IMG/VR virus record: IMGVR_UViG_3300027754_000291
Location: 1 to 31,769 of that record
Length of the DNA: 31,769 nt
Source of the DNA: a virus
Strand: one strand, 5' to 3'
Shown here: positions 4,288 to 30,867 of the stretch, piece after piece
Layout of the letters: each line of letters begins with the position of its first letter
Numbering within the stretch: position 1 is the first letter of the stretch
Made by a program: the position numbers and the translations under genes
The notes under the pieces: generated by a model
Told to the model about the DNA's origin: nothing
What the model saw: the letters and a program-made list of their open reading frames with translations, nothing else
The model's database searches: none

Positions 4288-4727
4288 ACCTAGAACTAGC
4301 CGCTGAACTGTGCCGCCGGTATGAAGGGTATCGGGCTAAGCCCTACCTTTGTCCGGCTGGCGTGGCTACGATTGGCTACGGTTCTACCTACTACGCAGAC
4401 AAACGCAAGGTAACTTTGGAAGACGCTCCGATGGACGAACCTACGGCTAGGGCGCTTTTAATGATTGAGCTTGAGCACACGTACCTACCCGGTGTTCTGC
4501 GTAACTGCCCCGGCTTGATTACTGACGTACGTAAGTGCAACGCCATCGTGGACTTCTGCTACAACCTAGGCACAGGACGCTTGCAAACATCTACGTTAAA
4601 GAGGAAAATCAATGCCAATGATTGGGAAGGCGCAAAAGAACAACTGATGCTCTGGACTAAAGGTGGCGGTCGGGTACTGCCGGGTCTGTTTAAACGCCGC
4701 ACGGCTGAGTGCGCTTTGTTGGATTAA
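4284..4727 (+). CDS. Endolysin, T4-type lysozyme (GH24)
   Basis: Cleaves the glycan strands of peptidoglycan (N-acetylmuramidase) at the end of infection. The N-terminal RRYEGYRAKPYLCPAGVATI and GYGST give the GH24 signature. Glu14 aligns with the catalytic Glu11 of T4 lysozyme and Thr29 with Thr26. The position of T4 Asp20 is Cys23, with the same 9- and 6-residue spacings. Later conserved pieces include the DFCYNLG segment near residue 90 and the GLFKRRTAE motif near the C-terminus. Length (147 aa) is normal for this family. There is no signal-arrest-release helix at the N-terminus, so it probably needs the upstream holin to reach the wall. The start overlaps the preceding stop. Confidence 0.9.
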   Translation: MNLELAAELCRRYEGYRAKPYLCPAGVATIGYGSTYYADKRKVTLEDAPMDEPTARALLMIELEHTYLPGVLRNCPGLITDVRKCNAIVDFCYNLGTGRLQTSTLKRKINANDWEGAKEQLMLWTKGGGRVLPGLFKRRTAECALLD

Positions 4728-4730
4728 CCG

Positions 4731-6629
4731 ATGGCACTTAAAAAACTAACTTTGAAAGCTGGTGTAAACAAAGAAAACACCCGTTATACCAATGAAAATG
4801 GTTGGTATGAATCCGATAAAGTGCGGTTTCGCCAAGGTACGCCTGAAAAAATTGGTGGTTGGGAACGCATATCAGCGGCAACATTCTTAGGTGTTTGTCG
4901 TTCTTTGTGGAATTGGGTCACTCTTGGATTTTTAAATTTAGTTGGGGTTGGCACTAACTTAAAGTTTTATATTGAGAGCGGCGGCGCATACAACGACATT
5001 ACACCTATTCGGGCATCTAGCACAATTAACAACAACCCGTTTGTAGCTACAAATGGCTCTGCCACAATCACAGTAACAGATACAAGTCACGGTGCTATTA
5101 CGGGTGACTTTGTTACTTTTAGTGGTGCTATAGGGTTGGGCGGGAATATCACGGCTACGGTGTTAAACGCTGAATATCAAATAACAGTTCTTACTGCAAA
5201 TACATACACATTTACAGCGTCAGCCACAGCCAATGCAACGGATGCTTCTGGCTCTCCCGGTGGTGGTGCTTCTGTCGTAGCGGCGTATCAAATCAGTGTT
5301 GGCCCTGCCATAGTTGGCCCATTTGTTGGTTGGGGCGGTGGTACTTGGGGGCAAGGTGTGTGGGGTACTGGAGGTACTTCTTTATCTAGTATTCGCATTT
5401 GGAGTCAAAGCAATTTTGGTCAAAATTTAATTTTCAGTTACCGTGGGAGTCCTATTTATTATTGGGATGCCGCATCTGGTTTGACAACTAGGGGTGTTCT
5501 TGTTTCATCTTTGTCCGGTGCTTCTGATGTCCCAACAGTTCAAAATTTTATTTTTGTATCTGATACAAGCAGATTTGTATTTGCATTTGGTTGTAATGAC
5601 ATTGGTTCAGGAACACTAAACCCTATGTTAATCCGTTGGTCAGATCAAGAATCTGTAGTAAATTGGACACCGGCAACAATCAATCAAGCTGGTAGTGTGG
5701 TGTTATCTCACGGCTCAGAAATTATTACAGTTGTCCAAGCTCGGCAAGAAATTGTAGTATTTACTGATTCGTCTATTTATTCATTGCAATACCAAGGCCC
5801 ACCAGTAATATGGAGTTCTCAACTTCTTGGCGACAACATTTCAATTATTAGCCCTAATGCGGCTGTAATTGCTTCCGGTGTTGTGTATTGGATGGGTGTA
5901 GATAAGTTTTATAAATATGACGGGCGAGTCCAAACTTTGCGTTGCGATTTACTTCGTTTTATCTACCAAGACATTAACTTAGTTCAATCAACGCAAGTGT
6001 TTGCGGGAACCAATGAAGGCTTTAATGAAGTCTGGTGGTTTTATTGTTCTGCTACTAGCACCGCTATTGACCTGTACGCAATCTATAACTACGCAGAAGA
6101 TGTTTGGTCTTATGGAACGCTAAGTCGTACAGCATGGCTTGATTCGGGTTTGCGTGATTATCCGTTGGCGGCTACATACAACTCAACCACAAGTACTGGT
6201 AACCTTGTAAACCATGAGTATGGTGTAAACAACAATGAAACTGGAACACCTGTAGCAATTAACGCTTTAATTGGCTCTGCTGAGTTTGACATTGATGACG
6301 GCGATCATCTTGGATTTGTCTGGAGAATGCTCCCAGATATTACATTCCGTGGGTCTGACGCGGTTTCTCCGCAAGTGACTATGACACTAATCCCCATGCA
6401 GAACTCAGGATCCGGGTATAACAATCCAGTCTCTGTGGGCGGTAACTCAAGTGCGACAGTAACCCGTACATCTACTTCAGTGATTGAGCAGTTTACGGGT
6501 CAGGTGTACGTTAGGGTGCGAGGCCGTCAAATGATTCTTCAAGTTGAATCTAGCCAGATTGGGTGTACTTGGCAATTGGGTTCACCCCGTATTGACATCA
6601 AACAAGATGGCCGCAGGGGTAATTCATGA
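4731..6629 (+). CDS. Virion structural protein, possibly gp10-like packaged-DNA stabilisation / tail protein (632 aa)
   Basis: The product starts MALKKLTLKAGVNKENTRYT followed by ENGWYESDKVRFRQG. This opening and the repeated short beta-strand pattern (for example VLVSSLSGASDVP, VVYWMGVDKFYKYDGRVQTL) resemble proteins annotated in podovirus-like phages as stabilisation protein gp10 or tail tube components. Residues 110-190 contain a Gly/Thr/Ala-rich insert (TVTDTSHGAITGDFVTFSGA) that looks like a small beta domain. No catalytic motif or membrane segment is present. The ATG lies 3 bp after the endolysin stop and the gene ends in a 4-bp overlap with the next. A head-tail connector or tail role is inferred from family resemblance and position, not proved. 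Confidence 0.55.
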   Translation: MALKKLTLKAGVNKENTRYTNENGWYESDKVRFRQGTPEKIGGWERISAATFLGVCRSLWNWVTLGFLNLVGVGTNLKFYIESGGAYNDITPIRASSTINNNPFVATNGSATITVTDTSHGAITGDFVTFSGAIGLGGNITATVLNAEYQITVLTANTYTFTASATANATDASGSPGGGASVVAAYQISVGPAIVGPFVGWGGGTWGQGVWGTGGTSLSSIRIWSQSNFGQNLIFSYRGSPIYYWDAASGLTTRGVLVSSLSGASDVPTVQNFIFVSDTSRFVFAFGCNDIGSGTLNPMLIRWSDQESVVNWTPATINQAGSVVLSHGSEIITVVQARQEIVVFTDSSIYSLQYQGPPVIWSSQLLGDNISIISPNAAVIASGVVYWMGVDKFYKYDGRVQTLRCDLLRFIYQDINLVQSTQVFAGTNEGFNEVWWFYCSATSTAIDLYAIYNYAEDVWSYGTLSRTAWLDSGLRDYPLAATYNSTTSTGNLVNHEYGVNNNETGTPVAINALIGSAEFDIDDGDHLGFVWRMLPDITFRGSDAVSPQVTMTLIPMQNSGSGYNNPVSVGGNSSATVTRTSTSVIEQFTGQVYVRVRGRQMILQVESSQIGCTWQLGSPRIDIKQDGRRGNS

Positions 6630-6967
6630 TTGTTATATCCGAGTTTGAGATCAATCAGGTTGCTTCGCCCAACCTACCACTGTCTCCGCTTGAGTACAAC
6701 CAGCAATACACCAATCAGCTAAACAACGTACTACGCCTGTACTTTAATAGGGTTGATGCTATTCTTGGTCAGCTTAAGACAGATGAAATCATCCCACCGT
6801 TAACTAATTACACTGTAGCAACATTACCTAGCGCAGTCACTTCAGGTAAAGGTGCAAGGTCTTTTGTTACTGATGCTTTAGCTCCTGTATTTGGGGCAAC
6901 CGTTGCGACTGGCGGGGCAGTGGCAGTGCCCGTCTACTCTGACGGCACGAATTGGAAGGTCGGGTAA
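6626..6967 (+). CDS. Small virion-associated protein with phage C-terminal beta motif (113 aa)
   Basis: The C-terminal 45 residues (SGKGARSFVTDALAPVFGAT through VPVYSDGTNWKVG) match a small beta-structured ending found on many phage tail and fibre proteins, where it probably caps or attaches a trimer. The N-terminal half is hydrophilic and Asn/Gln-rich with a helical stretch around LNNVLRLYFNRVDAILGQL, compatible with a short coiled coil. The start overlaps the previous stop by 4 bp and the stop shares a base with the next start. It is likely a minor particle component. Confidence 0.6.
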   Translation: MIVISEFEINQVASPNLPLSPLEYNQQYTNQLNNVLRLYFNRVDAILGQLKTDEIIPPLTNYTVATLPSAVTSGKGARSFVTDALAPVFGATVATGGAVAVPVYSDGTNWKVG

Positions 6968-8601
6968 TGACTTTAGAAGAACTTAAAGCCCTGTATGCCG
7001 AGAAAGGCGCTACTGAAGCCGTTCATGGCGTATCTGAACAGGGCGACACCGTAGATTACCAACCTATTCAATATGGGCAAGGATGGACTGCTTGGGATAA
7101 AGCGCCTGAAATTATTGGATATCAAGATGGTGCAGGCGGTGGAGAAGGCGGTGATCAGCCCGTTCCAATTTATAGCACTGACAAAAAACTTGGTGGCTTT
7201 GCCAAGCAAGAAGGCGATTACATCACTTCCTACGACTTAGACGGCAACGTTGTTAAACGTGAGAAGATGGATCATGATAACTTTTTAAAGACCATGATCA
7301 AGGATCTTGGGCCTTTAGCTCTGGCCGCCATGACAATGGGTGGCGGTAATGCTTTGCTAGGAAATGCATTATTTGGCCTGACAGGTGCAGGTGCATCAGC
7401 CGCTGGCGGAGCTTTGGCAGGCAGTTTAAACGCTTATGGAAATGACAGCAACATCCTTAAAGGCGCATTGCTTGGTGGTGTATCGGGCGCAGGCTCTGCA
7501 AAACTTGCAGATATTTTTGGTGCTGATACTTTAGGCAAAACGTTTGAAAATGCCAAGATAGGCGATATAACCAAAGCAATTAACTTTGCTCAAAACCCCA
7601 CCCTAGCCGGAGCGGCAAATATTGCCTCTCCTTACATGACAACCAACTTTGAACTTGGTGATACTGGATTTACCACTAACGATTTACTTAAAGGCGTTAA
7701 CACGGCGCAAGCTTTTGGTAGTGGAGATAACAAAAAGATATTTGACGCTATTACAGGTTTAGCTAAAGGAACAGACTTTAGCGGTTTAACCGCAAGCGAA
7801 CAGGCGGAACGTAATGCCAATCGAGAAACCGCACGTTTAAACAAAATTGAAAACGCAGTTTTAAACCAGCCAGCGTCTGATGATGGGTCAACACAAGGAA
7901 TTGTTGATTTAATTAATGAGATGTACCCAGCCGCAGATGTTAAAGGTATGTCTCAAGGCGATTTAGTTAAATTCCTTGAAGCCAATATGGGTGAAATTCA
8001 AGGTTCTGCGGAGCTTGAAACTTTGCTTAAAGGCCAAGGAAAAACTGCCGCAGATGAAGGCACTGTTACTGTAACGGGCGATAGGCCTACAGGCCTTGGC
8101 GACTTTATGGTTCCCACCACAGATACACCCAAGGGCAATGTGGTTCCAGTAGATAACCCTGATGAAGTGGTTATTACAGGTGATCGTCCCGCGCCGTATA
8201 TTTCTAGCCTTAGAACCAAAGATATTAAGTCTGACATTCCGGATGAGATAACTTCCGATCAGATTGACAAGTTGTTTCCAGATATTGATTTTAATGATAT
8301 CTTGCAAACTGTTACCGTTCCGGGCGACACAAAAACTGTTACTCCAACCAAGACGGTTATTCCTGCAACTGTTACGCCAAAAACAACTGTGCCGGGAACA
8401 ACAACCACAGAGCAGGCATTAATGAATCTTGGTTTAAACGCACCAATGCCTAGCCAAGATCCGTATGCCAATATAAAATTGATGGAAGAGTTGTTTGGCG
8501 GTGATACAGCTTACAAGCTCAGAGCACTTGGAGCACCTAAAAACCAAGCATCTACGGATATGGATGCTCTTGCTCGTTTACTAAGGAAGCAAAATGGATG
8601 A
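6967..8601 (+). CDS. Putative internal or minor virion protein with Gly/Ala-rich core and TGDRP repeats (544 aa)
   Basis: I chose the ATG at 6967: it follows a GGAAGGT ribosome site at 6954-6960 and shares a base with the previous stop. A TTG 15 bp upstream is open but lies over that site. Residues 105-170 are a Gly/Ala-rich hydrophobic stretch (LLGNALFGLTGAGASAAGGA) that could insert in or cross a membrane. The C-terminal third carries two near-copies of a VTVTGDRP / VVITGDRP motif, then a Thr/Val/Pro-rich linker around TVTPTKTVIPATVTPKTTV. The combination resembles internal or ejected virion proteins. No enzymatic motif was seen. Confidence 0.55.
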   Translation: MTLEELKALYAEKGATEAVHGVSEQGDTVDYQPIQYGQGWTAWDKAPEIIGYQDGAGGGEGGDQPVPIYSTDKKLGGFAKQEGDYITSYDLDGNVVKREKMDHDNFLKTMIKDLGPLALAAMTMGGGNALLGNALFGLTGAGASAAGGALAGSLNAYGNDSNILKGALLGGVSGAGSAKLADIFGADTLGKTFENAKIGDITKAINFAQNPTLAGAANIASPYMTTNFELGDTGFTTNDLLKGVNTAQAFGSGDNKKIFDAITGLAKGTDFSGLTASEQAERNANRETARLNKIENAVLNQPASDDGSTQGIVDLINEMYPAADVKGMSQGDLVKFLEANMGEIQGSAELETLLKGQGKTAADEGTVTVTGDRPTGLGDFMVPTTDTPKGNVVPVDNPDEVVITGDRPAPYISSLRTKDIKSDIPDEITSDQIDKLFPDIDFNDILQTVTVPGDTKTVTPTKTVIPATVTPKTTVPGTTTTEQALMNLGLNAPMPSQDPYANIKLMEELFGGDTAYKLRALGAPKNQASTDMDALARLLRKQNG

Positions 8602-11422
8602 AAATGCATATGACGTAGAAGATGCTGGCGGTGGTTATACAGTAGCCGCACCGTTCCCCGGCGCAGATACGGATCCAAATACCAACCCCAACACTAGTAC
8701 CGGCCCCAATTCACCGTTTACACGCGGTGATGTTTTTACAAACCAAACTGTGATGGATCCATCTGCTGGTATAGCAGGGCTAAAGAAGTTTGTAACAGAT
8801 AACAAAGCATTTATAACTGGTGCAGGCGCGTTGGCTAGTGTCTATGGTGGCGGTACAAACGCTGATAAGAAGACAGGCTACCAAGGCGTTATTCCTACAT
8901 TAGCCGCTTCTCGTTCAATGATTGCCGCTCCTCCTACCCGTGCACAAGGCTACCGTCCCGGCGCAGGTGGGATTGATTATGGTGGTGATGTATCCTACAC
9001 GCTTGCTCCGGGTCAAGCTCCTTATGCCAATCTGTCAGGAACTTCAGGTTCTGCGGCTGGTGCAAATTTAACCACTCCCGGCGACACAACTTCCGGAGGT
9101 TTAACCACTATTGCAGGCGGCACAACTCCCGGTGGCACAACCGTGACTCCCGGTGGCACAAAAGTAGTAACCCCCCCATTACCCAAAACAATAACACCTT
9201 TACCACTTGATGTTAAGCCTCCACCACCTACCAACCTAGGTTCTAAGGGATACCAAGCCGCTATTGCGGCAGGACTTACTCCCGCCCAATATTTAGGCAA
9301 TATTAATCAATGGCTTATTGATAATCCCCGTGCAAGTAAAGCGCAAGTTGATGCCGCCATGAGCCAGTTTGGCGTAAGCCAAGAAGATTTGCAAACGGCT
9401 TTAGGAACCACAAACTTTTCAGACTACACAAAGTATGGTTTGACTCATGGTCAAGGTTTGCAAGAGTTGAATTTCAAGATTGCTGATTGGGTTTCTCAAC
9501 ACCCATATGCAACAAACAAAGAGATACAAGATGCAATGAAAGCCGCAGGAGTTAATGATGCGGATATTGCCCGTGGTTTAAACGGCCTGTCAGCCTCTGC
9601 TGGCAAAGAATCTGCAATCATTAATGACATGGGCTTAGATCAGTTGTACAAGAATATCTTGGACTACCAAGCCGCAGGTCATTCTTCTGCTGAAGTTGCC
9701 GCCGCATTAGCGGCTACGGGACTTGATCAACGTGATATCAATGCCGCTAATAAATTTGCCACGGCGCAAAATTACACCGCTAATCCTACATCTGCGGCGG
9801 CTACTGTTAACTATCTACCCACTACTAATGTAGCGGATACTTCTACACCACCTCCTCCTACTAAAGTGGCTGATGTTGTGCAAGCCGCATCAACACCTAC
9901 AGCGGTTCAAAATACTGCGCCTGACAACTCAGGCAAGATGAGCGAGATTTATCAGTATTTTGCCGACCCCTCAACACAAGCCGCACTTGCCTCTGGTAAT
10001 ACACGAGGTATTGCTGAAACCATGCAAGCTTTGGGTTATTCTCCAGCCGAAGTAGCACAAGCTACAGGTTCAAATGTGGCTGATGTTCAGGCCGCATATG
10101 ATGCGGCTCTTGGTTCTAATAAGGTTGGATTTTATGATCCTTACAGCGAAGCATTTGCCGAGGGTGGTATGGCTAAAGGTCGTTATCTACAAGGTGAAAC
10201 AGATGGCATGGCAGATAAACTTCCAGCCCAAATTGGTAATGACCAACCCGCCGCTTTAAGCCATGGTGAGTTTGTTATCCCTGCGGATGTGGTTTCCCAT
10301 ATGGGTAACGGCAACTCTGATGCCGGAGCTAAGAAGCTTTATCAAATGATGGACAAAATTCGTATGGCACGTACAGGTACAAAGAAACAAGGTAAACGTA
10401 TCAACCCTGATAAGTTTATGCCCGGTGGATTGGCTCAAGCTTACGCTTCAGGTGGCTCAGTTAAGCACTTTGACAATGGTGGTTCCACAGGAACTCCTGC
10501 GGCTAACTACGGCGCAGGTCTTGCAGGCGTTGAATCTAACCTATCCAACTGGGCAGGCCCATATGTAACCAACATGCTTGGTCAAGGCCAAGCCTTGGCT
10601 AACATGCCTTATCAGGCTTACATGGGTCAGTTGTCTGCGGGTGAATCTCCTTTACAGACTTCAGCATTCAGCAATGCTTCCAATCTACAAACACCGTCTA
10701 GCATTGGTACTGCCGCTACAAACGCAGGAACTATTGGTACTGCGGCTCAAGGGTTGAAGTACACGCCTACAACCACATCGTTTGATGCGGCACAGGCTCA
10801 GAATTACATGAACCCCTATTTGCAGGCTTCTTTGAATCCTCAACTAGATGAAGCTCGCCGTCAGTCTCAGATTACCCAACAAGGTAATGCCGCCAAGATG
10901 ACTCAGGCAGGTGCTTTTGGAGGCTCCCGTCAGGCTATCCTTGATGCCGAAACACAGCGTAACTTAGGCACTAACCTAGCTAATATCACTGGTCAGGGCT
11001 ATAACACTGCGTTTAACAATGCACAACAGCAGTTCAATGCTGATCAGACCCGTAAGATGCAAGAAGCTCAATACGGTGCAGGCTACGGTTTGCAGGGTCT
11101 ACAGGCAGGCTTACAAGCCGCCACGGCTCAAGGCGCTTTGGGCGTTCAACAGAACCAAGCCGACATTAATAACCTCAACGCACAACTGACCGCTGGCGGT
11201 CAACAACGTGGCATTGAGTCTGAAGGTATTGCCGCAGACAAAGCACAGTTTGAAGAAGCTAGGGCCAATCCTTATAAGATGGTTCAGTACCAACAGTCTT
11301 TATTGCAAGGCCTGCCTTTGGCGGCTCAGAGCTATCAAGGTATTGAGCCTTCTGCGTTGCTTAAAGCTTCTCAAGGTGCTTCCACCGTTAATGCTTTGTT
11401 AAAGAATCTTGGCCTAGCCTGA
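8594..11422 (+). CDS. Large internal virion protein candidate (942 aa)
   Basis: Three parts are visible. Residues 1-210 are low-complexity Gly/Thr/Pro with GGTTPGGT-type repeats. Residues 215-560 form helical repeats in which the same helix-turn pattern recurs about every 75 residues (GYQAAIAAGLTPAQYLGNIN and related). After GGMAKGRYLQGETDGMADKL comes a conserved block with GEFVIPADVVSHMGNGNSDA, found in many aquatic phage genomes. Residues 700-942 are Gln/Ala/Asn-rich (ANITGQGYNTAFNNAQQQFN) and probably long helices. Cysteine is absent. The start overlaps the previous gene by 8 bp behind an AAGGAAG site. Position between structural genes and the giant polyvalent gene suggests a capsid-internal ejected protein. 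Confidence 0.55.
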   Translation: MDENAYDVEDAGGGYTVAAPFPGADTDPNTNPNTSTGPNSPFTRGDVFTNQTVMDPSAGIAGLKKFVTDNKAFITGAGALASVYGGGTNADKKTGYQGVIPTLAASRSMIAAPPTRAQGYRPGAGGIDYGGDVSYTLAPGQAPYANLSGTSGSAAGANLTTPGDTTSGGLTTIAGGTTPGGTTVTPGGTKVVTPPLPKTITPLPLDVKPPPPTNLGSKGYQAAIAAGLTPAQYLGNINQWLIDNPRASKAQVDAAMSQFGVSQEDLQTALGTTNFSDYTKYGLTHGQGLQELNFKIADWVSQHPYATNKEIQDAMKAAGVNDADIARGLNGLSASAGKESAIINDMGLDQLYKNILDYQAAGHSSAEVAAALAATGLDQRDINAANKFATAQNYTANPTSAAATVNYLPTTNVADTSTPPPPTKVADVVQAASTPTAVQNTAPDNSGKMSEIYQYFADPSTQAALASGNTRGIAETMQALGYSPAEVAQATGSNVADVQAAYDAALGSNKVGFYDPYSEAFAEGGMAKGRYLQGETDGMADKLPAQIGNDQPAALSHGEFVIPADVVSHMGNGNSDAGAKKLYQMMDKIRMARTGTKKQGKRINPDKFMPGGLAQAYASGGSVKHFDNGGSTGTPAANYGAGLAGVESNLSNWAGPYVTNMLGQGQALANMPYQAYMGQLSAGESPLQTSAFSNASNLQTPSSIGTAATNAGTIGTAAQGLKYTPTTTSFDAAQAQNYMNPYLQASLNPQLDEARRQSQITQQGNAAKMTQAGAFGGSRQAILDAETQRNLGTNLANITGQGYNTAFNNAQQQFNADQTRKMQEAQYGAGYGLQGLQAGLQAATAQGALGVQQNQADINNLNAQLTAGGQQRGIESEGIAADKAQFEEARANPYKMVQYQQSLLQGLPLAAQSYQGIEPSALLKASQGASTVNALLKNLGLA

Positions 11423-24468: not shown

Positions 24469-24475
24469 GGTCACG

Positions 24476-24814: not shown

Positions 24815-24965
24815 TGTTTGCCTTTCTGTATTCCAATACTTCTTTGAGTAAACGTTCCATCTCATCAGCCGCCATCAAATGAAATGGGCTGATCGGTTTG
24901 TGGCTTGCCATTGAACGCATCATGCCGATGGTTGTTCGTGCAGTTGTTTCACTTATCTTTGCCAT
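24738..24965 (-). CDS. Small hypothetical early protein (75 aa)
   Basis: The product starts MAKISETTARTTIGMMRSMA, continues through HKPISPFHLMAADEMERLLK, and ends in a basic, probably disordered tail (KKADDHQAT). The ATG is preceded by GGAGA and overlaps the end of the upstream gene by 17 bp. A longer frame exists but would cover most of that gene. It is an amphipathic, helix-rich protein without known motifs. Confidence 0.5.
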   Translation of the reverse strand: MAKISETTARTTIGMMRSMASHKPISPFHLMAADEMERLLKEVLEYRKANNERTKFKHMGKSVGVEKKADDHQAT

Positions 24966-25122
24966 CGTCAATCTCCACAGGGCCGTTAAACATAGCCATG
25001 CCCAACTGCCCAAGCATGACCGCTTTTAAACGCTCTCGATCTTCTTCTGGGAAATCAGAAGCAACGTCATTCATTATTTTTAGAATGTCTTGTGCCATTT
25101 TTTGTGGTGTGATGGCGCTCAT
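24949..25122 (-). CDS. Small acidic hypothetical protein (57 aa)
   Basis: It reads MSAITPQKMAQDILKIMNDV, then DFPEEDRERLKAVMLGQLGM, and ends EIDDGKDK, a compact helical acidic protein. A strong AAGGAGAAG site precedes the ATG, and the start overlaps the previous stop (ATGA). It is short but has the strongest translation signals in this stretch. Acidic small early proteins often bind host factors, but nothing here shows a partner. Confidence 0.6.
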   Translation of the reverse strand: MSAITPQKMAQDILKIMNDVASDFPEEDRERLKAVMLGQLGMAMFNGPVEIDDGKDK

Positions 25123-25289
25123 GTGTTCTTCTCCTTAAGCTTGGCTTCAACGGCTTTGCCGTAATCGTGTTCAGGCATTTTGCTCATGTCCGTTTTCCAC
25201 CACAATTCGCTTCGTTCTTTGGCTGTCAGACCAACCCACGGCTTCATAATTTTCTGCACATCTTCGGGTGTATGTGTTCTGCTTGTCAT
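25119..25289 (-). CDS. Small hypothetical protein (56 aa)
   Basis: The product begins MTSRTHTPEDVQKIMKPWVG and contains LTAKERSELWWKTDMSKMPE, a charged helical sequence with paired tryptophans. The ATG lies 3 bp after the preceding stop and the stop overlaps the next start. Its own ribosome site is weak (GTGGATAAAAC), so it may rely on coupling. Function unknown. Confidence 0.55.
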   Translation of the reverse strand: MTSRTHTPEDVQKIMKPWVGLTAKERSELWWKTDMSKMPEHDYGKAVEAKLKEKNT

Positions 25290-25292
25290 GTT

Positions 25293-25898
25293 TTATCCAC
25301 GCACCATGTGTGCTTTGTTTGCTTCATTGGATACATCCCTAGCAGATGCGTATGCATTGGACTTAGGAATTTCTTCTATGTTTATTGTTGAGTCGTCATG
25401 TAAGCTGGCTCCTGTATGTGACTTACCTACAGTGGCACGGTTCATTAAAGCCGTTGCAATCTTACGCAGTGCATGGTCTGAGTCCTTAGCCAACATGGTC
25501 GTTACTATGCCAACGGCAAATAGCTTAGGGTCGTACGGCTCAGTTAACTGGGGGGAAAACTGATTGATAGGTTGCGAATTCTCATCACGCATGATGACAG
25601 GACTGCTTATTGATTGGTCTTTTGTAATAATAGTGCTTAAGAAATGAACCTTTTCTCTTACTTTTTCAGCACCCTTTATCATCACTGATACGTTTCCAGT
25701 ATCAAAAATCCATCTCATTTTTCTTTCAATATCATCAGCCTCACAACCAACTACAAGTAATTTATGTTTGGCAGTTTCGCCTGTTTCCTTATCCATTACA
25801 TTTACATCTACGATGTAAAGCATTCCCAAAAGAGGAGCCTCCGTTGGTTTTTGTGCAGTTAACAATGGCGGGTGATGAATTTTCTTGTATCTAGTCAT
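25293..25898 (-). CDS. Hypothetical protein (201 aa)
   Basis: The ATG at 25898 (MTRYKKIHHPPLLTAQKPTE) is chosen because it overlaps the previous stop (ATGA) behind AAGGAGAAG; the frame remains open a further 51 bp. The N-terminal half looks like an alpha/beta domain (GMLYIVDVNVMDKETGETAK, LLVVGCEADDIERKM) and its DNA is visibly more AT-rich than neighbouring genes. The C-terminal third, with FAVGIVTTMLAKDSDHALRK, is a helical domain ending in a charged tail. The composition shift could reflect a fusion of parts of different origin. No catalytic motif recognised. Confidence 0.55.
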   Translation of the reverse strand: MTRYKKIHHPPLLTAQKPTEAPLLGMLYIVDVNVMDKETGETAKHKLLVVGCEADDIERKMRWIFDTGNVSVMIKGAEKVREKVHFLSTIITKDQSISSPVIMRDENSQPINQFSPQLTEPYDPKLFAVGIVTTMLAKDSDHALRKIATALMNRATVGKSHTGASLHDDSTINIEEIPKSNAYASARDVSNEANKAHMVRG

Positions 25899-26080
25899 GT
25901 GTTCTTCTCCTTCAGCGCGGCCTCTAGCGCATCCATAGCTTGATCCCAAATGTGATAATCCATTGTGTTACTAAAAACATTGACGACCAGACTGGCTGTT
26001 TTCTCAATGTGTCTCAGGCGCTTAACTTCCATTTCCAAGTTACCCACCAGCAAATCCAGTTCTCTCTCCTCGTTTGTCAT
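25895..26080 (-). CDS. Small helical hypothetical protein (61 aa)
   Basis: The sequence MTNEERELDLLVGNLEMEVK followed by RLRHIEKTASLVV is a heptad-like amphipathic helix, probably a coiled coil. DYHIWDQAMDALEAALKEK closes the protein. ATGA overlaps link it to the genes on both sides. Its composition suggests a small oligomeric adaptor. No known family recognised. Confidence 0.55.
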   Translation of the reverse strand: MTNEERELDLLVGNLEMEVKRLRHIEKTASLVVNVFSNTMDYHIWDQAMDALEAALKEKNT

Positions 26081-26283
26081 TCTCCTAACTCCTCAAATAT
26101 TTGGTCTGTTAAATCTTGTACTCGATCAAGGACTGCGTTTAAATCAGCCTTCGTTTGAAAGCTACCCGTCACCGCCATCTTGATGTTAGTCAGTGCCCTG
26201 TACATCTCCGGCCCCTTGATGGCGAACAGTAAACTGTCCTCATCGTCAGGGTAAGTGAACTCAAGTATTACCTTCTGTTGCAT
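26077..26283 (-). CDS. Small acidic hypothetical protein (68 aa)
   Basis: The ATG follows AAGGAGA with suitable spacing; an in-frame TTG one codon upstream is less likely. The product begins MQQKVILEFTYPDDEDSLLF, a beta-strand start, and ends in a helical acidic segment (LDRVQDLTDQIFEELGE). The pattern of strand, acidic loop and two helices is sensible for a small folded protein. It overlaps the neighbours at both ends. Confidence 0.55.
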   Translation of the reverse strand: MQQKVILEFTYPDDEDSLLFAIKGPEMYRALTNIKMAVTGSFQTKADLNAVLDRVQDLTDQIFEELGE

Positions 26284-26440
26284 CAAGTCTCCTTAATGGT
26301 TTGGCGGTCAGCCAATGATCACCCAGTCTTAGGACTGCACGAACCCACTTGCGTTGGTTATGGCGATTAGTATGTTCCGGAGCCAAGTCGTTGTTGTAGA
26401 TCTGCCTTGCCTTGCGACGTAGTTGTTCAGTTGTTAGCAT
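26261..26440 (-). CDS. Small basic protein (59 aa)
   Basis: Start ATG at 26440 with an AGGGAGA site; a TTG two codons upstream is also open. The product, MLTTEQLRRKARQIYNNDLA followed by NRHNQRKWVRAVLRLGDHWL, is strongly basic and helical with paired tryptophans, consistent with nucleic-acid binding. It resembles small conserved proteins in other phage early operons, but the role is unknown. It overlaps the downstream gene by 23 bp. Confidence 0.6.
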   Translation of the reverse strand: MLTTEQLRRKARQIYNNDLAPEHTNRHNQRKWVRAVLRLGDHWLTAKPLRRLDATEGNT

Positions 26441-26657
26441 CTTCAATCTCCCTTAGGTTTAAATGCTCCGGACGCTTGCTGGTTATCCAGAAACCCTTTG
26501 CGTTTACACTGAACCCCAGAGCAGTCATTTCTTCTGGGGTTCTGCATCTTCTGTTTACACCATACTGACCGGTGCGGTGTTTCTCAAATGCTCCATTGCT
26601 ATTAAAGAATTCCATGCATCCTTTGCATTGGTTCCTGTCACCCTTTAATATTTTCAT
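26427..26657 (-). CDS. Small zinc-finger-like protein (76 aa)
   Basis: Cys11, Cys14 (CKGC), His27 and Cys38 are spaced like a single treble-clef or C2HC finger: CKGCMEFFNSNGAFEKHR, then VNRRCRTPEEM. The remaining part (LGFSVNAKGFWITSKRPEH) is a beta-rich tail typical of this small phage family. The ATG is preceded by AGGAG. A DNA- or protein-binding role is likely from the metal site; the target is unknown. Confidence 0.65.
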   Translation of the reverse strand: MKILKGDRNQCKGCMEFFNSNGAFEKHRTGQYGVNRRCRTPEEMTALGFSVNAKGFWITSKRPEHLNLREIEDANN

Positions 26658-26958
26658 TGTCGCTCCTGAGTCGTTGCTTCATGATTTCGTCTGCCATCAA
26701 GTCTGCAAAAGATTGTCCCGAGGGGAACCTCATCTGTGCCGCATGGTGACCATTGATAATATTAATGGATGCGTCTAGCCCCTCGTTAAAGCCCCGTAGG
26801 TAAGGGTTGTCTACCGCTACCCTCATAGACAATCCCTCTCTTAAAACTTGAGCCATGGTTAGTTTCTTAGACTTAGCAAACTTACGTAGCTTCACGTAGT
26901 CTGCATCGTTTATATACGTCATAAACGGTTTAAGCTTTTCTTTTTTAGAAGGGGTCAT
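26638..26958 (-). CDS. Ribbon-helix-helix regulator candidate (106 aa)
   Basis: Residues 12-48, FMTYINDADYVKLRKFAKSK and then KLTMAQVLREGLSMRV, fit a ribbon-helix-helix (Arc/MetJ-like) DNA-binding unit: a strand, a helix, a tight turn and a second helix. A longer C-terminal helical extension follows, with GQSFADLMADEIMKQRL. Such proteins dimerise and repress short palindromic operators, often their own promoter. AAGGAAAA precedes the ATG. The gene overlaps its neighbours by 14 and 20 bp. The regulatory role is by analogy. Confidence 0.6.
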   Translation of the reverse strand: MTPSKKEKLKPFMTYINDADYVKLRKFAKSKKLTMAQVLREGLSMRVAVDNPYLRGFNEGLDASINIINGHHAAQMRFPSGQSFADLMADEIMKQRLRSDNENIKG

Positions 26959-27340
26959 CGGTTTTCCTTATGGATTCAAACTCATGGAGTATCAAATCAA
27001 ACTTATATTTAGCGTCTGCTTTTCCATGAAGTTCCGTCCGGGAGTCAATCCCACAGCGTTTACACAACATGTGCGCGGCATCTGTTTCGTTGTCACACAT
27101 CAGGAACTCTTGGAAGTCAGGGTCACGGCAAAGCATCCCTGCTTTTTTGACACGGTTGTCATAGGGGGTTGCTGACTCATCGTCCTGTATCCGGACAAAA
27201 GCACAACCATACCTCGCACCCACAAAGTCCCGCATTAACTCCTCGGGAACTTCGTCAGGGTGGATAGCAATGGTTAAAACAAAACCTGTGCGGTCTTGCT
27301 TTAACGCAACTTTACGGGCTTCAAACTGTAGCGCCATCAT
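26945..27340 (-). CDS. Conserved phage protein with cysteine pairs (131 aa)
   Basis: I start at ATG 27340 (MMALQFEARKVALKQDRTGF), 20 bp inside the previous gene; the open frame upstream is shadow. The core ARYGCAFVRIQDDESATPYD, KAGMLCRDPDFQEFL and HMLCKRCGIDSRTELHGKAD recurs in many phage early regions next to recombination genes. Four cysteines, two of them in CKRC, may hold a metal. The first 50 residues look beta-rich (TGFVLTIAIHPDEVPEEL). The function is not known to me. Confidence 0.6.
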   Translation of the reverse strand: MMALQFEARKVALKQDRTGFVLTIAIHPDEVPEELMRDFVGARYGCAFVRIQDDESATPYDNRVKKAGMLCRDPDFQEFLMCDNETDAAHMLCKRCGIDSRTELHGKADAKYKFDLILHEFESIRKTDDPF

Positions 27341-27674
27341 CTTTGCTCGCAATGCCAAGGCGTGACTCAAGGTAAGAGATGACGTACTCAAGTCCTTCGT
27401 GGTGCAATCTCAATTCCTTTACCTTGTTTGCCAAGAAACGAATCCTCTCTTCTTGGAACGTGGTCAGGTTCTTGTACTTCGTGATCTCATCGTTTAAACG
27501 AGTAACCTCTTGTCGCAGTATCTGCTGGCCTTCGGTTGGCTTAGGTTCCTTCTTTACCCCGTTTTGAAGAACCTGATACACGTAAGCGGGTTTGCATTTA
27601 ACTTCGGTGGCAATCTCTTTGGCCGTAGCTTTAGGGTTGGCTAATTTGTAGGCACGAATTTTTTTAGATAACAT
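27321..27674 (-). CDS. Helix-turn-helix protein with C-terminal coiled coil (117 aa)
   Basis: Residues 4-38 (KIRAYKLANPKATAKEIATE and then VKCKPAYVYQVLQNG) form a typical winged or basic helix-turn-helix. Residues 50-105 are a strong coiled coil (QEVTRLNDEITKYKNLTTFQ and following), implying a dimer. The ATG at 27674 follows GAGGAGA. It probably regulates early transcription, or acts in replication initiation as some phage HTH/coiled-coil proteins do. The sequence alone does not separate these. Confidence 0.65.
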   Translation of the reverse strand: MLSKKIRAYKLANPKATAKEIATEVKCKPAYVYQVLQNGVKKEPKPTEGQQILRQEVTRLNDEITKYKNLTTFQEERIRFLANKVKELRLHHEGLEYVISYLESRLGIASKDDGATV

Positions 27675-27684
27675 TTCTCTCTCC

Positions 27685-28158
27685 TCAAATATAAATTGGC
27701 TTGTTAATTTTGTGCCACGCTTTGTGGCATTGCTCACATAACCACCGTACATCTAGTGGCTTGGTGTAGTCATCGTGATGACCCTCAATCTTTTCAACAG
27801 ATCCACAGATTGAGCAACTACTTGCGGGGATAAGTTTCCCATCACGTATTGCATTGCCTGCAATAACATGAGTGGCGTATGCCATTGGGTAACGTTTGTT
27901 ATACGCATCCATAGCTTTTTTCTTTGCAAGTTTTCCAGCTTCTGTTTGTTGGTAATCTTTACGTGCTTTAACACGATGCGGTTTGTTAGACCGCCTCTTG
28001 TCATATTCACGTATCGTTTCCAAATTAACCTCTCGGTGTTTATTAACTCTGCTTTTGACGCACGGTTTGCATTTGTTTAAATGCCCATCACCCATCGCGG
28101 CATGTTTGTAAAAATCACTTAAAGGCTTCTCTACACGGCACTCTCGACATACTTTCAC
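27685..28158 (-). CDS. HNH endonuclease-like zinc protein (157 aa, GTG start)
   Basis: Two metal modules flank a basic linker. N-terminal: Cys4, Cys7, Cys30, Cys33 (CREC...CKPC), with the K-P-L-S-D-F-Y motif common to phage zinc-ribbon/HNH proteins. C-terminal: CSIC (115-118), HH (127-128) and CEQCHKAWH (141-149), the HNH pattern with Cys4 zinc support. The start is GTG at 28158 behind a good AAGGAGT site; no ATG fits. Linker residues 40-90 are very basic and would contact DNA. It is probably a homing-type or recombination-linked nuclease; which one cannot be told. Confidence 0.75.
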   Translation of the reverse strand: MKVCRECRVEKPLSDFYKHAAMGDGHLNKCKPCVKSRVNKHREVNLETIREYDKRRSNKPHRVKARKDYQQTEAGKLAKKKAMDAYNKRYPMAYATHVIAGNAIRDGKLIPASSCSICGSVEKIEGHHDDYTKPLDVRWLCEQCHKAWHKINKPIYI

Positions 28159-28174
28159 GATTACTCCTTAAAAC

Positions 28175-28205
28175 GGTATGCCTTAAGTATACCATTCTAG
28201 AATGG
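28175..28205. promoter_or_regulatory. Two adjacent dyad-symmetric sites in an intergenic gap (operator candidates)
   Basis: GGTATGCCTTAAGTATACC at 28175-28193 has GGTAT/ATACC arms. CCATTCTAGAATGG at 28192-28205 is a perfect 14-bp palindrome that includes the TAG stop of the SSB-like gene. They fill the 38-bp gap before the HNH gene. They could be operators for the ribbon-helix-helix or HTH protein of the same operon, or a processing hairpin. No U-tract follows, so they do not form an intrinsic terminator. Confidence 0.35.
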
Positions 28206-28523
28206 CACATCACTGTCGTCAGGATGACTCTGCGCTTGGTTCTCTTGACGGGTTCCGGCCTGTTCCTCAGGAACCCAACGGTTGACTGCCAATGACAAGT
28301 AAGTCTTGCCGTTGGTTTCGCTGACACGTTTCCATCCGGATAACTTAATCACGGTCAAACCGTTCTCAGTCTTTATGTTGGTCAAGTCTTTAAGATTGAT
28401 GGCAATCGTTCCCCAGTAATCGGGGGATTCAGCCGTCTTCTTAATCTGACTGGCATGAAGATTACCGGAGTCAGGTCGCTCCTCAAAGGGCTTGCTATAT
28501 GCTTTCTTTTGGTAGGTACTCAT
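28197..28523 (-). CDS. Single-stranded-DNA-binding-like protein (108 aa)
   Basis: The C-terminus ends HPDDSDVPF, closely matching the acidic DDDIPF-type tip by which SSB proteins recruit partners. The body has strands compatible with a small OB-like fold (YWGTIAINLKDLTNIKTENG, VIKLSGWKRVSETNGKTYLS). The N-terminal 30 residues are basic and flexible. It lies immediately after an annealing protein and exonuclease, with an ATGA overlap, which fits a recombination module. It is much shorter than canonical SSB (about 170 aa), so this is a divergent phage SSB-like protein rather than a clear family member. Confidence 0.6.
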   Translation of the reverse strand: MSTYQKKAYSKPFEERPDSGNLHASQIKKTAESPDYWGTIAINLKDLTNIKTENGLTVIKLSGWKRVSETNGKTYLSLAVNRWVPEEQAGTRQENQAQSHPDDSDVPF

Positions 28524-29251
28524 TTCTTTTCCTCAGTTAGTTGAAGCTTCAAGGTCTTGAAGCGGGATAAAACCTCCTCGTAAAGGGGAGGGTGCGTTGC
28601 CTTCAGCGAGTCAAGCTGAAGCTCATTGCTCTTCCAGTAGCTGTTTAAACCTGCTACGCTGGTGCAGTCGGATGTCCACTCAATCATTCCTTCGGTAAAC
28701 AGCTTGCGGCTTTCGTCCGATGGATCCCATTCGGTGGGTTGTGCTTTGACCAAAACCTTTGGGGCAACCTTAGCCACAATCTTCTCGTACTTAGGCGCAT
28801 CTTCCTTGCGGGTTAGTTCCCCCATTGGAGCCGTTGCCTGTGGCGTATAAGCCGTTTTCCCATCATCCTCCGGTAAGTCGGAACCCGCATAGATATAAAT
28901 GCCCAAACCATGAAGCGCAAGGGCTTTGGTCATGCACCTCATAATCGCTGTATTGACGGCAAACGCATCAGGGTTAAGGATGGGTTTATTCTTGTAGTCC
29001 ATGACGGGCAACATACAGGTCATTGGCTTGCCAAACATGGTGACAGTGACCCACACCAAGCCTGTGCCATTGACATCCATATAGGGCATTGGGGAGTACT
29101 GATCCCGATTAAATGTATGTACATTAAATGTAGCGGCAGGGTCAGCCTTAAGGGCTTCAGCCCACGCAAACGCCCATGAGAGGTACGTTAGGCCGTTCTT
29201 CTTCTCGGTGTGATCATTGACGTTGATCTTGAGTAAATCATGCGGAGACAT
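28520..29251 (-). CDS. Single-strand annealing protein, DUF1071 / Sak3-like (243 aa)
   Basis: Anneals complementary single strands during phage recombination. The signature DLLKINVNDHTEKKNGLTYL, SWAFAWAEALKADPAATF and the later CMTKALALHGLGIYIYAG with SDLPEDD match DUF1071, assigned to Sak-type (Rad52/Erf-like) annealing proteins. I place the start at ATG 29251, behind a perfect AAGGAG site that overlaps the end of the exonuclease gene (14 bp). The frame is open to 29377, but the extra N-terminus is low-complexity and absent from typical relatives. The C-terminal 90 residues are variable and charged. The partner exonuclease is directly upstream. Confidence 0.8.
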   Translation of the reverse strand: MSPHDLLKINVNDHTEKKNGLTYLSWAFAWAEALKADPAATFNVHTFNRDQYSPMPYMDVNGTGLVWVTVTMFGKPMTCMLPVMDYKNKPILNPDAFAVNTAIMRCMTKALALHGLGIYIYAGSDLPEDDGKTAYTPQATAPMGELTRKEDAPKYEKIVAKVAPKVLVKAQPTEWDPSDESRKLFTEGMIEWTSDCTSVAGLNSYWKSNELQLDSLKATHPPLYEEVLSRFKTLKLQLTEEKK

Positions 29252-30116
29252 TGAGTTCTCCTTGATATTGACTGCACCACTTGCTGACACCACAGAAGTC
29301 TCCTGTGCATCGCTTGGGTTCGCCTTTTCTTGTTTCGACATATCCTTTTTCCTTTTCTGCCAACTCTGTGGCTTCATCTATTGTTTTAAGTACACGGATC
29401 GCAGTCTTGCGACCCTCTCTCTTCACTGCATAAGTGGTTTCGCTCACCCACCTTTCGTCATCGGTACAGGGCTGTAAGTCCTCCCCGAATTCATGTTGCA
29501 CCTTGGCATTACGGTGCATGTTTAAACGATCCCTGACGTAAGTCTCGGTCGTAACTGACTTCCACATTGGGATGTCAATCATCACCGCCTCTGCCTCAGG
29601 GTAGTTTTCCTGAGCAGAATGGGGCGTGTAATCTTTGACAATGGCACAGATCTGTAGGCCTACCACAGGCGTACCCTTGACAGTCTCTACCAACCACTTG
29701 TAAATATTCAATTGAGTAACCCAGTCATCCTTGTTGTTTGCCAAGGCTTGCATGACTGACCACGCCTTAACAAACTTGTAATCGATGATGACAACGCCTC
29801 CATCTACTTGTTGTTGGAGGTCAATTGCACCGCTGATCACCACGCCATCAATCTCAGTAAAGATGCGTTCCTCATTGATATAACCCTCAACTTCCTTTGC
29901 CTCAAGCTTGCCGTGCATGAAAGTCCCAAGTTGGGACGCAATCATCTTGGTAACATCAACCTCCATGTCTGCGTCATACTGTTCGCGTAACCTTCTAATT
30001 TTTGGTGGTGACATTAACTCAGTTACGCTATACTGTGATGCACCTTTACTGTAGTAGTTCCTAGAGAGCAAAGCCACTAACGGTGCGGGTAGCTTCTGAT
30101 CGTTGGTTATCTTCAT
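29238..30116 (-). CDS. PD-(D/E)XK exonuclease, Cas4/RecB-like (292 aa)
   Basis: Digests duplex ends to give single strands for the annealing protein. Motifs in order: GTFMHGKLE near residue 64 (His68), SGAID with Asp99, IDYK with Asp112 and Lys114, and QLNIYKWL (Gln135 to Tyr139, the QxxxY motif). This is a complete RecB/Cas4-type active site. The C-terminus has CTGDFCGVSKWC and an earlier Cys in LQPC. Four cysteines of this kind hold an Fe-S cluster in Cas4/AddB relatives, so one is possible here. The ATG at 30116 follows GGAGAAG. It is the first gene of the leftward operon, facing rusA 19 bp away. Confidence 0.85.
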   Translation of the reverse strand: MKITNDQKLPAPLVALLSRNYYSKGASQYSVTELMSPPKIRRLREQYDADMEVDVTKMIASQLGTFMHGKLEAKEVEGYINEERIFTEIDGVVISGAIDLQQQVDGGVVIIDYKFVKAWSVMQALANNKDDWVTQLNIYKWLVETVKGTPVVGLQICAIVKDYTPHSAQENYPEAEAVMIDIPMWKSVTTETYVRDRLNMHRNAKVQHEFGEDLQPCTDDERWVSETTYAVKREGRKTAIRVLKTIDEATELAEKEKGYVETRKGEPKRCTGDFCGVSKWCSQYQGELNVSA

Positions 30117-30135
30117 CTCTTCTCCAAAGGTTGTC

Positions 30136-30573
30136 ATGAGTACAAAACACAATGATAGCGATGTTATAAAAGAATTGCAAGTACTGTCACAAATTATTTT
30201 TGGTGAGCCAGCTTCCAAAGCAAATTCTCGTAGAGTTGTACACTACGGTGGTATGTCTAGGCTGATTAAGTCTAAGAAAGCATTAAGCTACTCTGATGTA
30301 TTTAGACAACAGTGCAAACCATTGGCCGTGCTGATGACGGGTGATCTAAGGATCACCATGCATATCTACTACGCATCAAGACGACCCGACTTAGATGAGA
30401 GCCTGATCCTAGACTTGCTTCAGGGATTGATTTATGTGAACGACCGTCAGGTTAAGGAGAGGCATACCTACTGGCATCTCGACCCTGAGTTGCCCCGTAC
30501 AGAGATGATCATTGAGCAAACCCCTGAGGTGCACCCAAAAAAAAGCCCCTCCAAGCGTACTCAGAAGGGCTAA
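30136..30573 (+). CDS. rusA: RusA-type Holliday junction resolvase (145 aa)
   Basis: Resolves recombination intermediates as a dimer. The core ASRRPDLDESLILDLLQGLI followed by YVNDRQV carries the RusA acidic set: Asp85, Asp87 (DLD) and Asp103 (ND), with the usual G-E-P-x-S-K-x-N-S-R-R opening at residues 23-33. Start ATG 30136 is chosen over an upstream in-frame GTG because of its AAAGG site and RusA-like length. It diverges from the exonuclease, and a candidate leftward promoter lies inside its first codons. The last 15 codons encode a minus-strand terminator hairpin. Together with the annealing protein it completes a recombination set. Confidence 0.85.
   Translation: MSTKHNDSDVIKELQVLSQIIFGEPASKANSRRVVHYGGMSRLIKSKKALSYSDVFRQQCKPLAVLMTGDLRITMHIYYASRRPDLDESLILDLLQGLIYVNDRQVKERHTYWHLDPELPRTEMIIEQTPEVHPKKSPSKRTQKG
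30163..30192 (-). promoter_or_regulatory. Candidate promoter of the leftward operon, inside rusA
   Basis: On the minus strand TTGTGA (30187-30192) and TATAAC (30163-30168) are separated by 18 bp. That gives a start near 30156 and a leader of about 40 nt before the exonuclease ATG. It lies past the minus-strand terminator at 30537, so it would not be blocked by it. The -35 match is 4 of 6, the -10 match 5 of 6. Position makes it attractive; there is no further proof. Confidence 0.4.
30537..30571 (-). terminator. Intrinsic terminator, leftward
   Basis: Read on the minus strand, AGCCCTTC pairs with GGAGGGGCT (two wobble pairs) around a short loop, followed by seven or eight Us (the A-run at 30537-30544). 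It overlaps the end of the rusA coding sequence. It would stop leftward transcripts coming from 30574-30900 before they enter the exonuclease operon. There is no U-tract in the rightward direction. Confidence 0.7.
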
Positions 30574-30867
30574 CTCCAACAGGAGAGAGAATGGACAGGC
30601 AACTGCAAAGTAGTCTGTCGAGGGTTAGTTTAAACCAATAACGCAGGCGGGGTCAAATAATTTTATTTTTACTCGTTTCATAATACAAAACTAATAAACT
30701 CAACAAAATCAATAGGTTACTGAGTAACTAACAAAACCCAGCCTAATTTTTGGCCCCTGCATTAAACAACCCGGCGGTAACGTTTAAACGTATAGCGCAT
30801 TCCCGGCGCAAGGCAGAATTTGGGTTAGCCATCGCTAAATTATTTTTTGTCTTTTTTTTGATACTGC
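30574..30867. other. Non-coding AT-rich control region between rusA and the structured leader
   Basis: No convincing gene. It contains a 16-codon ORF with a good ribosome site (ATG at 30591, MDRQLQSSLSRVSLNQ) that could be a leader peptide. A candidate leftward promoter (TTGTAT at 30683-30688, TAAAAT at 30660-30665, 17-bp spacer) points at the minus-strand terminator. There is a dyad GTTAC-TGA-GTAAC at 30716-30728, two GTTTAAAC palindromes (30628 and 30782, the second within a 12-bp ACGTTTAAACGT), and a weak hairpin TTAGC/GCTAA at 30825-30838 followed by a T-rich run that may stop rightward rusA transcripts. An origin of replication is possible but unsupported. Confidence 0.4.

Follow-up and report, generated by a model that had tools for sequence, protein, structure and literature searches.

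The question raised by this locus is why a phage should carry a single 8-bp palindrome, GTTTAAAC, throughout its genes as well as in non-coding DNA, and what reads it. The window, i.e. the whole stretch of viral DNA analysed here (31,769 nucleotides; IMG/VR record IMGVR_UViG_3300027754_000291), had been credited in a preliminary description with a strongly iterated, HIP1-like palindrome that may mirror a host genome signature and so identify the host. The iteration is confirmed below; the host reading is not, and the distribution of the word points to a protein encoded by the phages themselves.

Abundance of the palindrome in the window

The window contains exactly 20 exact copies of GTTTAAAC, corresponding to about 0.6 per kb, with no copy in positions 1-4687, while the runner-up among 8-bp palindromes reaches 4. 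Expected counts are 0.86-0.91 for Markov models of orders 1-2 and 2.2 for order 3. The null models called for in the preliminary description were run, and neither simulation with an order-3 Markov model (150 runs, mean 2.26, maximum 8) nor codon- and protein-preserving shuffling of the window (300 shuffles, mean 1.02, maximum 4) reached 20. The earlier statements that codon preference is a poor explanation, and that the enrichment is the opposite of the restriction-site avoidance of phages, are thus borne out, and the reported 12-bp ACGTTTAAACGT is present at 30780. The sites are listed below with the encoded residues; where a site is kept elsewhere, the genome is named.

4688..4695, endolysin gene 4284-4727, L-F-K-R
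7424..7431, ORF 6952-8601, S-L-N
7835..7842, ORF 6952-8601, R-L-N
8432..8439, ORF 6952-8601, G-L-N
9576..9583, ORF 8594-11422, G-L-N
15235..15242, giant ORF 12861-23783, R-L-N
15643..15650, giant ORF 12861-23783, G-L-N
15997..16004, giant ORF 12861-23783, G-L-N
19064..19071, giant ORF 12861-23783, F-K; GTTTAAAC at the same codons in G014 and G065
20096..20103, giant ORF 12861-23783, F-K; at the same codons in G065 and G072
21743..21750, giant ORF 12861-23783, F-K; at the same codons in G065 and G085
22192..22199, giant ORF 12861-23783, S-L-N; at the same codons in G065 and G085
23857..23864, HNH-endonuclease-like gene 23761-24057, minus strand
24145..24152, gene 24044-24337, minus strand; kept in G065
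24794..24801, gene 24614-24865, minus strand
27492..27499, gene 27321-27752, minus strand; kept in L176
28643..28650, Sak-like annealing protein gene 28520-29377; kept in G014, G065 and L176
29520..29527, exonuclease gene 29238-30218; kept in L117
30628..30635, non-coding, 3' of gene 30103-30573
30780..30791, non-coding, ACGTTTAAACGT with the GTTTAAAC core at 30782-30789
28520..30573, early module: Sak, exonuclease and a plus-strand 156-aa gene
4762..31389, range covered by ten variant sites with one changed letter, probable weaker members
8716, 11436, 14268, 26502, 26553, 27058 and 31382, variant sites GTTTACAC
4762, 6223 and 11909, variant sites GTGTAAAC

The 18 coding sites lie on genes of both strands and are read either as [GRS]-L-N (12 sites) or as x-F-K (6 sites), the only two stop-free frames; together with the two non-coding copies (30628 and 30782) this agrees with the earlier account of several frames, both gene directions and non-coding DNA. 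The word is evidently under selection. Within the window, xGTTTAAAC is the exact spelling of 13 of the 16 [GRSC]-Leu-Asn tripeptides, and in non-enriched relatives [GRSC]LN is spelled with GTTTAAAC in 1 of 6, 0 of 9 and 0 of 12 cases. Moreover, several of the sites are retained in relatives at 30-55% protein identity. One-letter variants are over-represented in the window as well (GTGTAAAC/GTTTACAC, 10 copies, 9x expected; CTTTAAAC, 11 copies, 8.5x; ATTTAAAC, 7 copies, 4.7x), whereas in most lineages they stay near background. A search of cultured phages for a near DNA match to positions 4684-12860 and of bacterial genomes for the giant protein returned none.

Pairing of the word with a SprT-like gene

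The common factor of lineages A, B and C, Venkman, Pan1, R5C and the E. coli-type phages, whose gene sets otherwise differ, is a gene for a SprT-like metalloprotease, here called SprT, whose C-terminus carries a zinc ribbon (Q-x-T-R-x-x-K-x-x-C ... R ... C). When 28 viral contigs were fetched by SprT protein homology only, using a single protein as query and not the word, GTTTAAAC was the top 8-bp palindrome in about 24 of them (about 15-93x). A second sample, 80 contigs fetched by the primase of the window's lineage, comprised 75 that are enriched in GTTTAAAC (25-127x), the remaining 5, with 0-1 copies, carrying a one-letter variant at 20-68x instead; since the contigs are kin to one another, these counts are not fully independent. 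SprT is encoded on the opposite strand, 3.3-6.6 kb on from the primase, in 56 of 56 contigs long enough to reach it, and each of the 24 contigs lacking it breaks off no more than 4.9 kb from the primase. Among cultured SprT phages, copies of GTTTAAAC number 34 in Venkman, 17 in R5C, 16 in Pan1, 8 in Alexa, 7 in Arya, 6 in Bas97 and 4 each in Mano and Persinger, vs 0-1 for the control word.

The word itself varies between lineages. The possibility that actinophage SprT proteins go without any site was rejected, as GTTTACAC is enriched there (136 copies in eight genomes, 45x, in both orientations). Where the ribbon is lost (MW2, Epa5) or degraded (Eden), GTTTAAAC falls to 0 and GTTTACAC to at most 1; lineage A, which has lost the HExxH active site and kept the ribbon, shows the highest site densities. 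In L357 the ribbon is intact and neither word is present, and four enriched fragments (G067, G077, G088, G011), from which parts of the genomes are missing, contain no visible SprT. Taken together, the pairing of GTTTAAAC with SprT is strongly supported by these genome comparisons.

SprT was also sought in the window and is absent from this fragment. Because related contigs show the order early module, primase, SprT, the gene is predicted about 7.8 kb past the right end, near 39.6 kb on the numbering of the window, and the window's own phage presumably has it.

Features of the SprT protein

The match to the SprT-like Pfam family PF10263 lies above the curated cut-off for G089, G093 and Venkman and is weak for others. 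The 175-aa protein of lineage A does not match PF10263 and is tied to the family only by its ribbon and N-terminal homology. The HExxH motif, present in most members, is lost in lineage A and G065, and some lineage A contigs have dispensed with the entire protease domain. Across 22 SprT proteins, 7 of the 9 invariant residues fall within the ribbon. AlphaFold models the SprT of G014 with confidence (mean pLDDT 94.6). A sequence search of the PDB with SprT gave no significant match, and a Foldseek search of the model against the PDB gave none at E <= 0.001; the weak best matches, to the CapP metallopeptidase, abylysin and MCM chains (a 42-column stretch), are compatible with a metallopeptidase plus zinc ribbon and are no proof of it. 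None of the papers searched describes sequence-specific DNA recognition by SprT.

Placement and spacing of the sites

Of 56 SprT genes, 33 have a GTTTAAAC site in the 90 bp upstream, vs 6.9 expected. In sparse-site phages it is found 15-35 bp upstream in 10 of 10 cases, and in one of these no other site occurs in 16.6 kb. In three lineages the sites are densest at the SprT gene and thin out with distance, from 3.75 to 0.3, from 1.33 to 0.44 and from 2.55 to 0.23 per kb. Gaps below 30 bp are depleted (4 observed vs 88 expected) and gaps of 40-60 bp are favored (125 vs 55); helical phasing of the sites was looked for and not detected.

Between 67 and 81% of sites lie wholly inside ORFs, and the intergenic share is 3-4 times that expected. 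Since most sites are coding and the overall start-codon bias of their positions is small, initiation control accounts for only some of them, and a promoter-only reading was rejected. In Emotion, sites follow -10-like boxes of inferred promoters about 30 bp before starts, SprT's included. UNTPL, Pan1 and Wildwest have sites evenly spaced over the genome, which suggests a further role.

Proposed explanation and alternatives

With a probability of roughly 0.8, GTTTAAAC is the DNA site recognized by the phage-encoded SprT-like protein, which would regulate its own gene and occupy dispersed sites in the genome. The zinc ribbon would read the word, and the N-terminal metalloprotease domain, often intact, would be dispensable. 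SprT would control its own gene via a site overlapping the promoter or leader, and would occupy many further genome-wide sites kept by selection, densest near its gene and the early operons and with a minimum spacing of about 35-40 bp. The likeliest effect may be that phage transcription, early transcription above all, is silenced or roadblocked from these dispersed sites in a stoperator-like way, perhaps along with compaction or coating of phage DNA.

A first alternative holds that an active, Spartan-like SprT protease is loaded at the sites, from which it patrols the phage DNA and strips bound or cross-linked proteins of the host nucleoid or of defence. The HExxH motif of most members, the PF10263 assignment and the evenly distributed sites of UNTPL, Pan1 and Wildwest would fit, and SprT would still be the reader. 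However, the densest sites belong to lineage A, which lacks HExxH and in part the protease domain, and a patrolling protease is considered unlikely. Less likely again is another co-inherited phage protein, such as the primase-helicase or a small early DNA-binding protein, that reads the word and regulates SprT. Although the primase, too, occurred only on enriched contigs of the first data set, and SprT has an upstream site like other early genes, it is SprT that recurs across lineages with otherwise differing gene sets, and loss of sites coincides with loss of the ribbon.

The word could also be a modification target by which phage DNA is labelled as self or shielded, with SprT merely linked. 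Cyanobacterial HIP sites do accompany methyltransferases (PMC4390886), and Venkman encodes a DNA methyltransferase, but no cognate methyltransferase was consistently present among 521 proteins of strongly enriched contigs in a crude motif scan of partial contigs. Since the SprT-upstream sites, the density gradient and the joint loss of sites and ribbon would be left unexplained, this reading is very improbable.

The proposal of the preliminary description, a host signature akin to HIP1 or to DNA uptake sequences that the phage has copied or acquired through amelioration, can hardly be upheld. HIPs are known in cyanobacteria (PMC4390886) and the density in the window is similar in magnitude to that of HIP1. 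The suggested search for bacterial genomes with the same enrichment gave 77 scattered stretches, many of them repeats, when 85,000 species of bacteria and archaea were scanned for runs of three GTTTAAAC sites, and in 33 of the genomes with such stretches whole-genome counts were near those of the control word. None of the bacterial genomes counted was enriched to viral levels, and genome enrichment of the type seen in competent hosts with DNA uptake sequences was likewise not found in the scan or in the counts. Phages bearing the word span unrelated hosts of different phyla (Methylophilales, cyanobacteria, roseobacters, E. coli), close relatives (G001, G004, G010) are without it, and its density is centred on a phage gene. 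As GTTTAAAC tracks SprT, the repeats look like phage-encoded genome-wide control rather than a host signature; iterated palindromes in phages need not indicate the host. Finally, codon usage, amino-acid or mutational bias is refuted: TTA is frequent among the leucine codons of the window (182/720), but shuffling leaves about 1.0 copy vs 18 coding copies, variants are near background in most lineages, non-coding DNA has 3-4 times its share of sites and enriched contigs range from 34 to 59% GC.

Comparison with known systems

SprT as the reader of the word would place these phages close to the repressor-stoperator system of Cluster A, in which many dispersed short sites, one of them overlapping a promoter, are recognized by a single phage protein (PMC9262239). 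Both show a site repeated at scattered positions of a phage genome and share the proposed silencing of transcription, and the sites 15-35 bp upstream of SprT, next to the -10-like boxes of inferred promoters, may be the counterpart of the promoter overlap. In contrast, Cluster A stoperators are asymmetric, 13-14 bp long, in one orientation and mainly intergenic, whereas the sites described here are palindromic and 8 bp long or, for GTTTACAC, occur in both orientations, and lie for the most part within genes. They further differ in a density of up to 4 per kb, in the gradient around one gene and in the candidate reader, a SprT metalloprotease-like zinc-ribbon protein.

Repeated motifs about 14-30 bp upstream of starts, in short intergenic gaps, are likewise seen in SAS/ESAS and other start-codon motifs of actinobacteriophage Clusters K, EC, EF, EG and EI (PMC7302621), but these are start-associated, occur in 5-12 copies, have no known reader and differ in sequence from GTTTAAAC and GTTTACAC. 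No report of GTTTACAC in SprT actinophages was found in the papers searched. HIP1 (GCGATCGC, cyanobacteria) is also a grossly over-represented 8-bp palindrome; it is, however, a feature of cellular genomes with methyltransferases (PMC4390886), whereas iteration of GTTTAAAC is exclusively viral and goes with a gene of the viruses.

A Pfam match, HExxH in most members and a zinc ribbon link the protein to the SprT/Spartan family (PF10263), from which the candidate sequence-specific recognition and the missing catalytic motif of lineage A set it apart. In many phages, SprT-like genes are annotated only as proteases, and a role as sequence-specific reader would give them a testable function. If true, this would be an unexpected class of phage DNA-binding regulator, in which a single protein strongly influences which synonymous codons a viral genome uses (13 of the 16 tripeptides able to hold the word). 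The natural diversity of both word and ribbon (GTTTAAAC, GTTTACAC/GTGTAAAC, ATTTAAAC) would offer a ready system for studying change in zinc-ribbon specificity. On balance, and with less assurance than for the pairing of reader and site, the evidence favors an undescribed, widespread, genome-wide nucleoid or silencing system in phages of several bacterial phyla, in which a SprT-like ribbon would read a co-evolving 8-bp GTTTAMAC family that selection has spread to at most 4 sites per kb, graded around the reader's own gene.

Over-representation of the palindrome in the window

The palindrome GTTTAAAC occurs in 20 exact copies in the 31,769-base IMG/VR virus record, against Markov expectations of 0.9 (orders 1–2) and 2.2 (order 3). 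Synonymous-codon shuffling over all window genes gave a mean of 1.02 copies and a maximum of 4 in 300 shuffles, as compared with 18 coding copies. The excess noted in the preliminary description thus withstands both the codon-shuffle and the third-order Markov check. At [GRSC]-Leu-Asn, 13 of the 16 spots in the window are written exactly xGTTTAAAC, versus 1/6, 0/9 and 0/12 in non-enriched relatives. Several window sites recur unchanged at the corresponding codons of relatives, mostly with 30–60% protein identity, and other sites are unshared, a combination which argues that the word is maintained by selection, with turnover.

The tail-fibre end (positions 1–4687) contains no GTTTAAAC, in line with a site density that declines away from the early module or with recent exchange there. 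The 3640-aa ORF at positions 12861–23783 encodes a giant polyvalent protein, with domains of the ART-PolyVal (ADP-ribosyltransferase) and LPD38 types.

The proposed host signature

The proposal that the word mirrors a host genome signature was not supported, since phage relatives differ sharply and none of the bacterial genomes counted is enriched to the level of the phages. Among relatives collected via the virion 'stabilization' protein, G014 (GC 0.55) carries 30 GTTTAAAC in 62 kb and G011 carries 10 in 26 kb, versus 0–1 each in G001, G004 and G010. A pattern scan of viral contigs revealed many phages with 1–4.5 copies per kb at GC 0.34–0.59, about 40–360x a simple base-composition expectation. 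Scanning 85,000 bacterial and archaeal species for triple sites returned only 77 scattered stretches; a simple calculation puts the yield of a 3-Mb genome with 2 sites per kb at about 20 matches, and an isolated species with one site every 1.6 kb (0.7 matches expected) could escape. Whole-genome counts in 33 genomes from these matches placed GTTTAAAC near a control 8-mer, the highest being 385 versus 150 in the 4.2 Mb of Mucilaginibacter arboris (G043, source of stretch L243). Identity with HIP1 (PMC4390886) or with a DNA uptake sequence was rejected because no host-type genome with the word was found.

A SprT-like protein accompanies the word

Comparison of enriched records from lineages A (WhiB/sigma/amidoligase phages), B (that of the window) and C (AT-rich phages) singled out one protein family, a SprT-like metalloprotease with a C-terminal zinc ribbon. 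These records had been picked by the word, and the link was therefore tested in the reverse direction. GTTTAAAC is the top palindrome in about 24 of 28 contigs fetched by SprT homology alone, and 75 of 80 contigs fetched by the window-lineage primase are enriched, counts which are not independent, as the contigs of both sets are related to one another. Every one of the 56 primase-fetched contigs of sufficient reach has SprT, 3.3–6.6 kb past the primase and invariably on the opposite strand; the remaining 24 all stop within 4.9 kb of the primase. Four enriched fragments (G067, G077, G088, G011) show no SprT within their available sequence. Judging from the gene order of G014, the SprT gene of the window phage is predicted about 7.8 kb past the right end of the window.

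SprT phages of the annotated collection were counted over whole genomes.

Table. GTTTAAAC and control-word copies in cultured SprT phages
Phage (host group); GTTTAAAC; control word
Venkman (Methylophilales); 34; 0–1
Pan1 (Pseudanabaena); 16; 0–1
R5C (Dinoroseobacter); 17; 0–1
Alexa (Acinetobacter); 8; 0–1
Arya (Enterobacter); 7; 0–1
Bas97 (E. coli); 6; 0–1
Mano (Achromobacter); 4; 0–1
Persinger (P. aeruginosa); 4; 0–1

Seven actinophage-type records (Arthrobacter, Microbacterium and Streptomyces phages, bacteriophage 4A) contain 0–2 GTTTAAAC and 12–39 GTTTACAC each; GTTTACAC totals 136 (45x), and the word's other neighbours are almost all absent there. Five window-lineage contigs with 0–1 GTTTAAAC carry GTGTAAAC or ATTTAAAC/CATTTAAA instead (~20–68x). 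Taken with the ribbon comparisons below, this variation suggests that reader and word have co-evolved. A second iterated palindrome, TTCACGTGAA, occurs in 7 copies in Arthrobacter phage Emotion (L334; ~690x expected) and in 5 in JasmineDragon (L392–L393; ~480x).

Zinc ribbon and protease domain

Where SprT has lost the ribbon (Bordetella phage MW2, Pseudomonas phage Epa5), GTTTAAAC is absent, as is GTTTACAC bar one copy in MW2; Eden, with a degraded ribbon, has neither. Lineage A has lost the protease active-site motif HExxH, at times the whole protease domain, and keeps the ribbon together with the densest sites. Its ribbon-only protein (L158 8755–9012; L330, G097, 118–417; L310, G079, 151–363) is a SprT protease decayed to a bare zinc ribbon. 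The protease is probably dispensable in the proposed system. An alignment of 22 SprT proteins has 9 invariant residues, 7 of them in the ribbon. On contig L357 (7989–8564) the ribbon is intact, yet GTTTAAAC and GTTTACAC are missing; this contig is enriched ~24x for TCCGCGGA, TTCCGGAA and CAAGCTTG instead. The predicted structure of G014 SprT is a confident model, for which Foldseek against the PDB found no close solved relative.

Placement of the sites

Of 56 SprT genes, 33 have a site in the 90 bp preceding the start, where mean densities predict 6.9. All 10 sparse-site phages have such a site, mostly 15–20 bp from the ATG. Four of the sites in Emotion come after a promoter-like TTGCGTG...TAGACT sequence some 30 bp ahead of a start codon, in one case that of SprT. 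In three lineages the site density declines away from the SprT gene. Non-coding DNA holds 3–4x its share; most sites nevertheless lie within genes, at no preferred position. Gaps shorter than about 34 bp hardly occur and gaps of 40–60 bp are in excess, partly via homologous clusters; spacing in UNTPL, Pan1 and Wildwest is more even than random.

Other elements occur among the sites. A CIRCE-like inverted repeat, TTAGCAGTC-N9-GAGTGCTAA, of the HrcA operator type, lies between GTTTAAAC sites in three contigs (L320, G092, 10221–10323; L332, G095, 14223–14325; L148 4427–4537). Pairs of GTTTAAAC 44–54 bp apart flank intrinsic-terminator-like hairpins in two (L329, G096, 3804–3970; L310 2345–2510).

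Proposed mechanism and known systems

In the best reading, we infer that SprT binds the word through its zinc ribbon, regulates the promoter of its own gene and occupies dispersed sites, where its footprint would exclude close neighbours. The likely outcome would be silencing or roadblocking of phage genes, mainly early ones, and perhaps also compaction of phage DNA. Like the binding and the direction of regulation, the reason for the density gradient around SprT is presumptive. In members that retain the protease, it may act on proteins bound to DNA.

No prior report of the word was found in phage papers of the open-access literature searched. From HIP1 (PMC4390886) and from DNA uptake sequences the phage word differs in that no host-type genome was found to carry it. 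The proposed SprT–word system does not match any of the known iterated-site systems considered, and it joins an iterated site to a class of proteins that is not known to read specific sequences. Should its function prove to be silencing, it could be seen as a form of control resembling that by stoperators, the dispersed repressor-bound sites of Cluster A phages.
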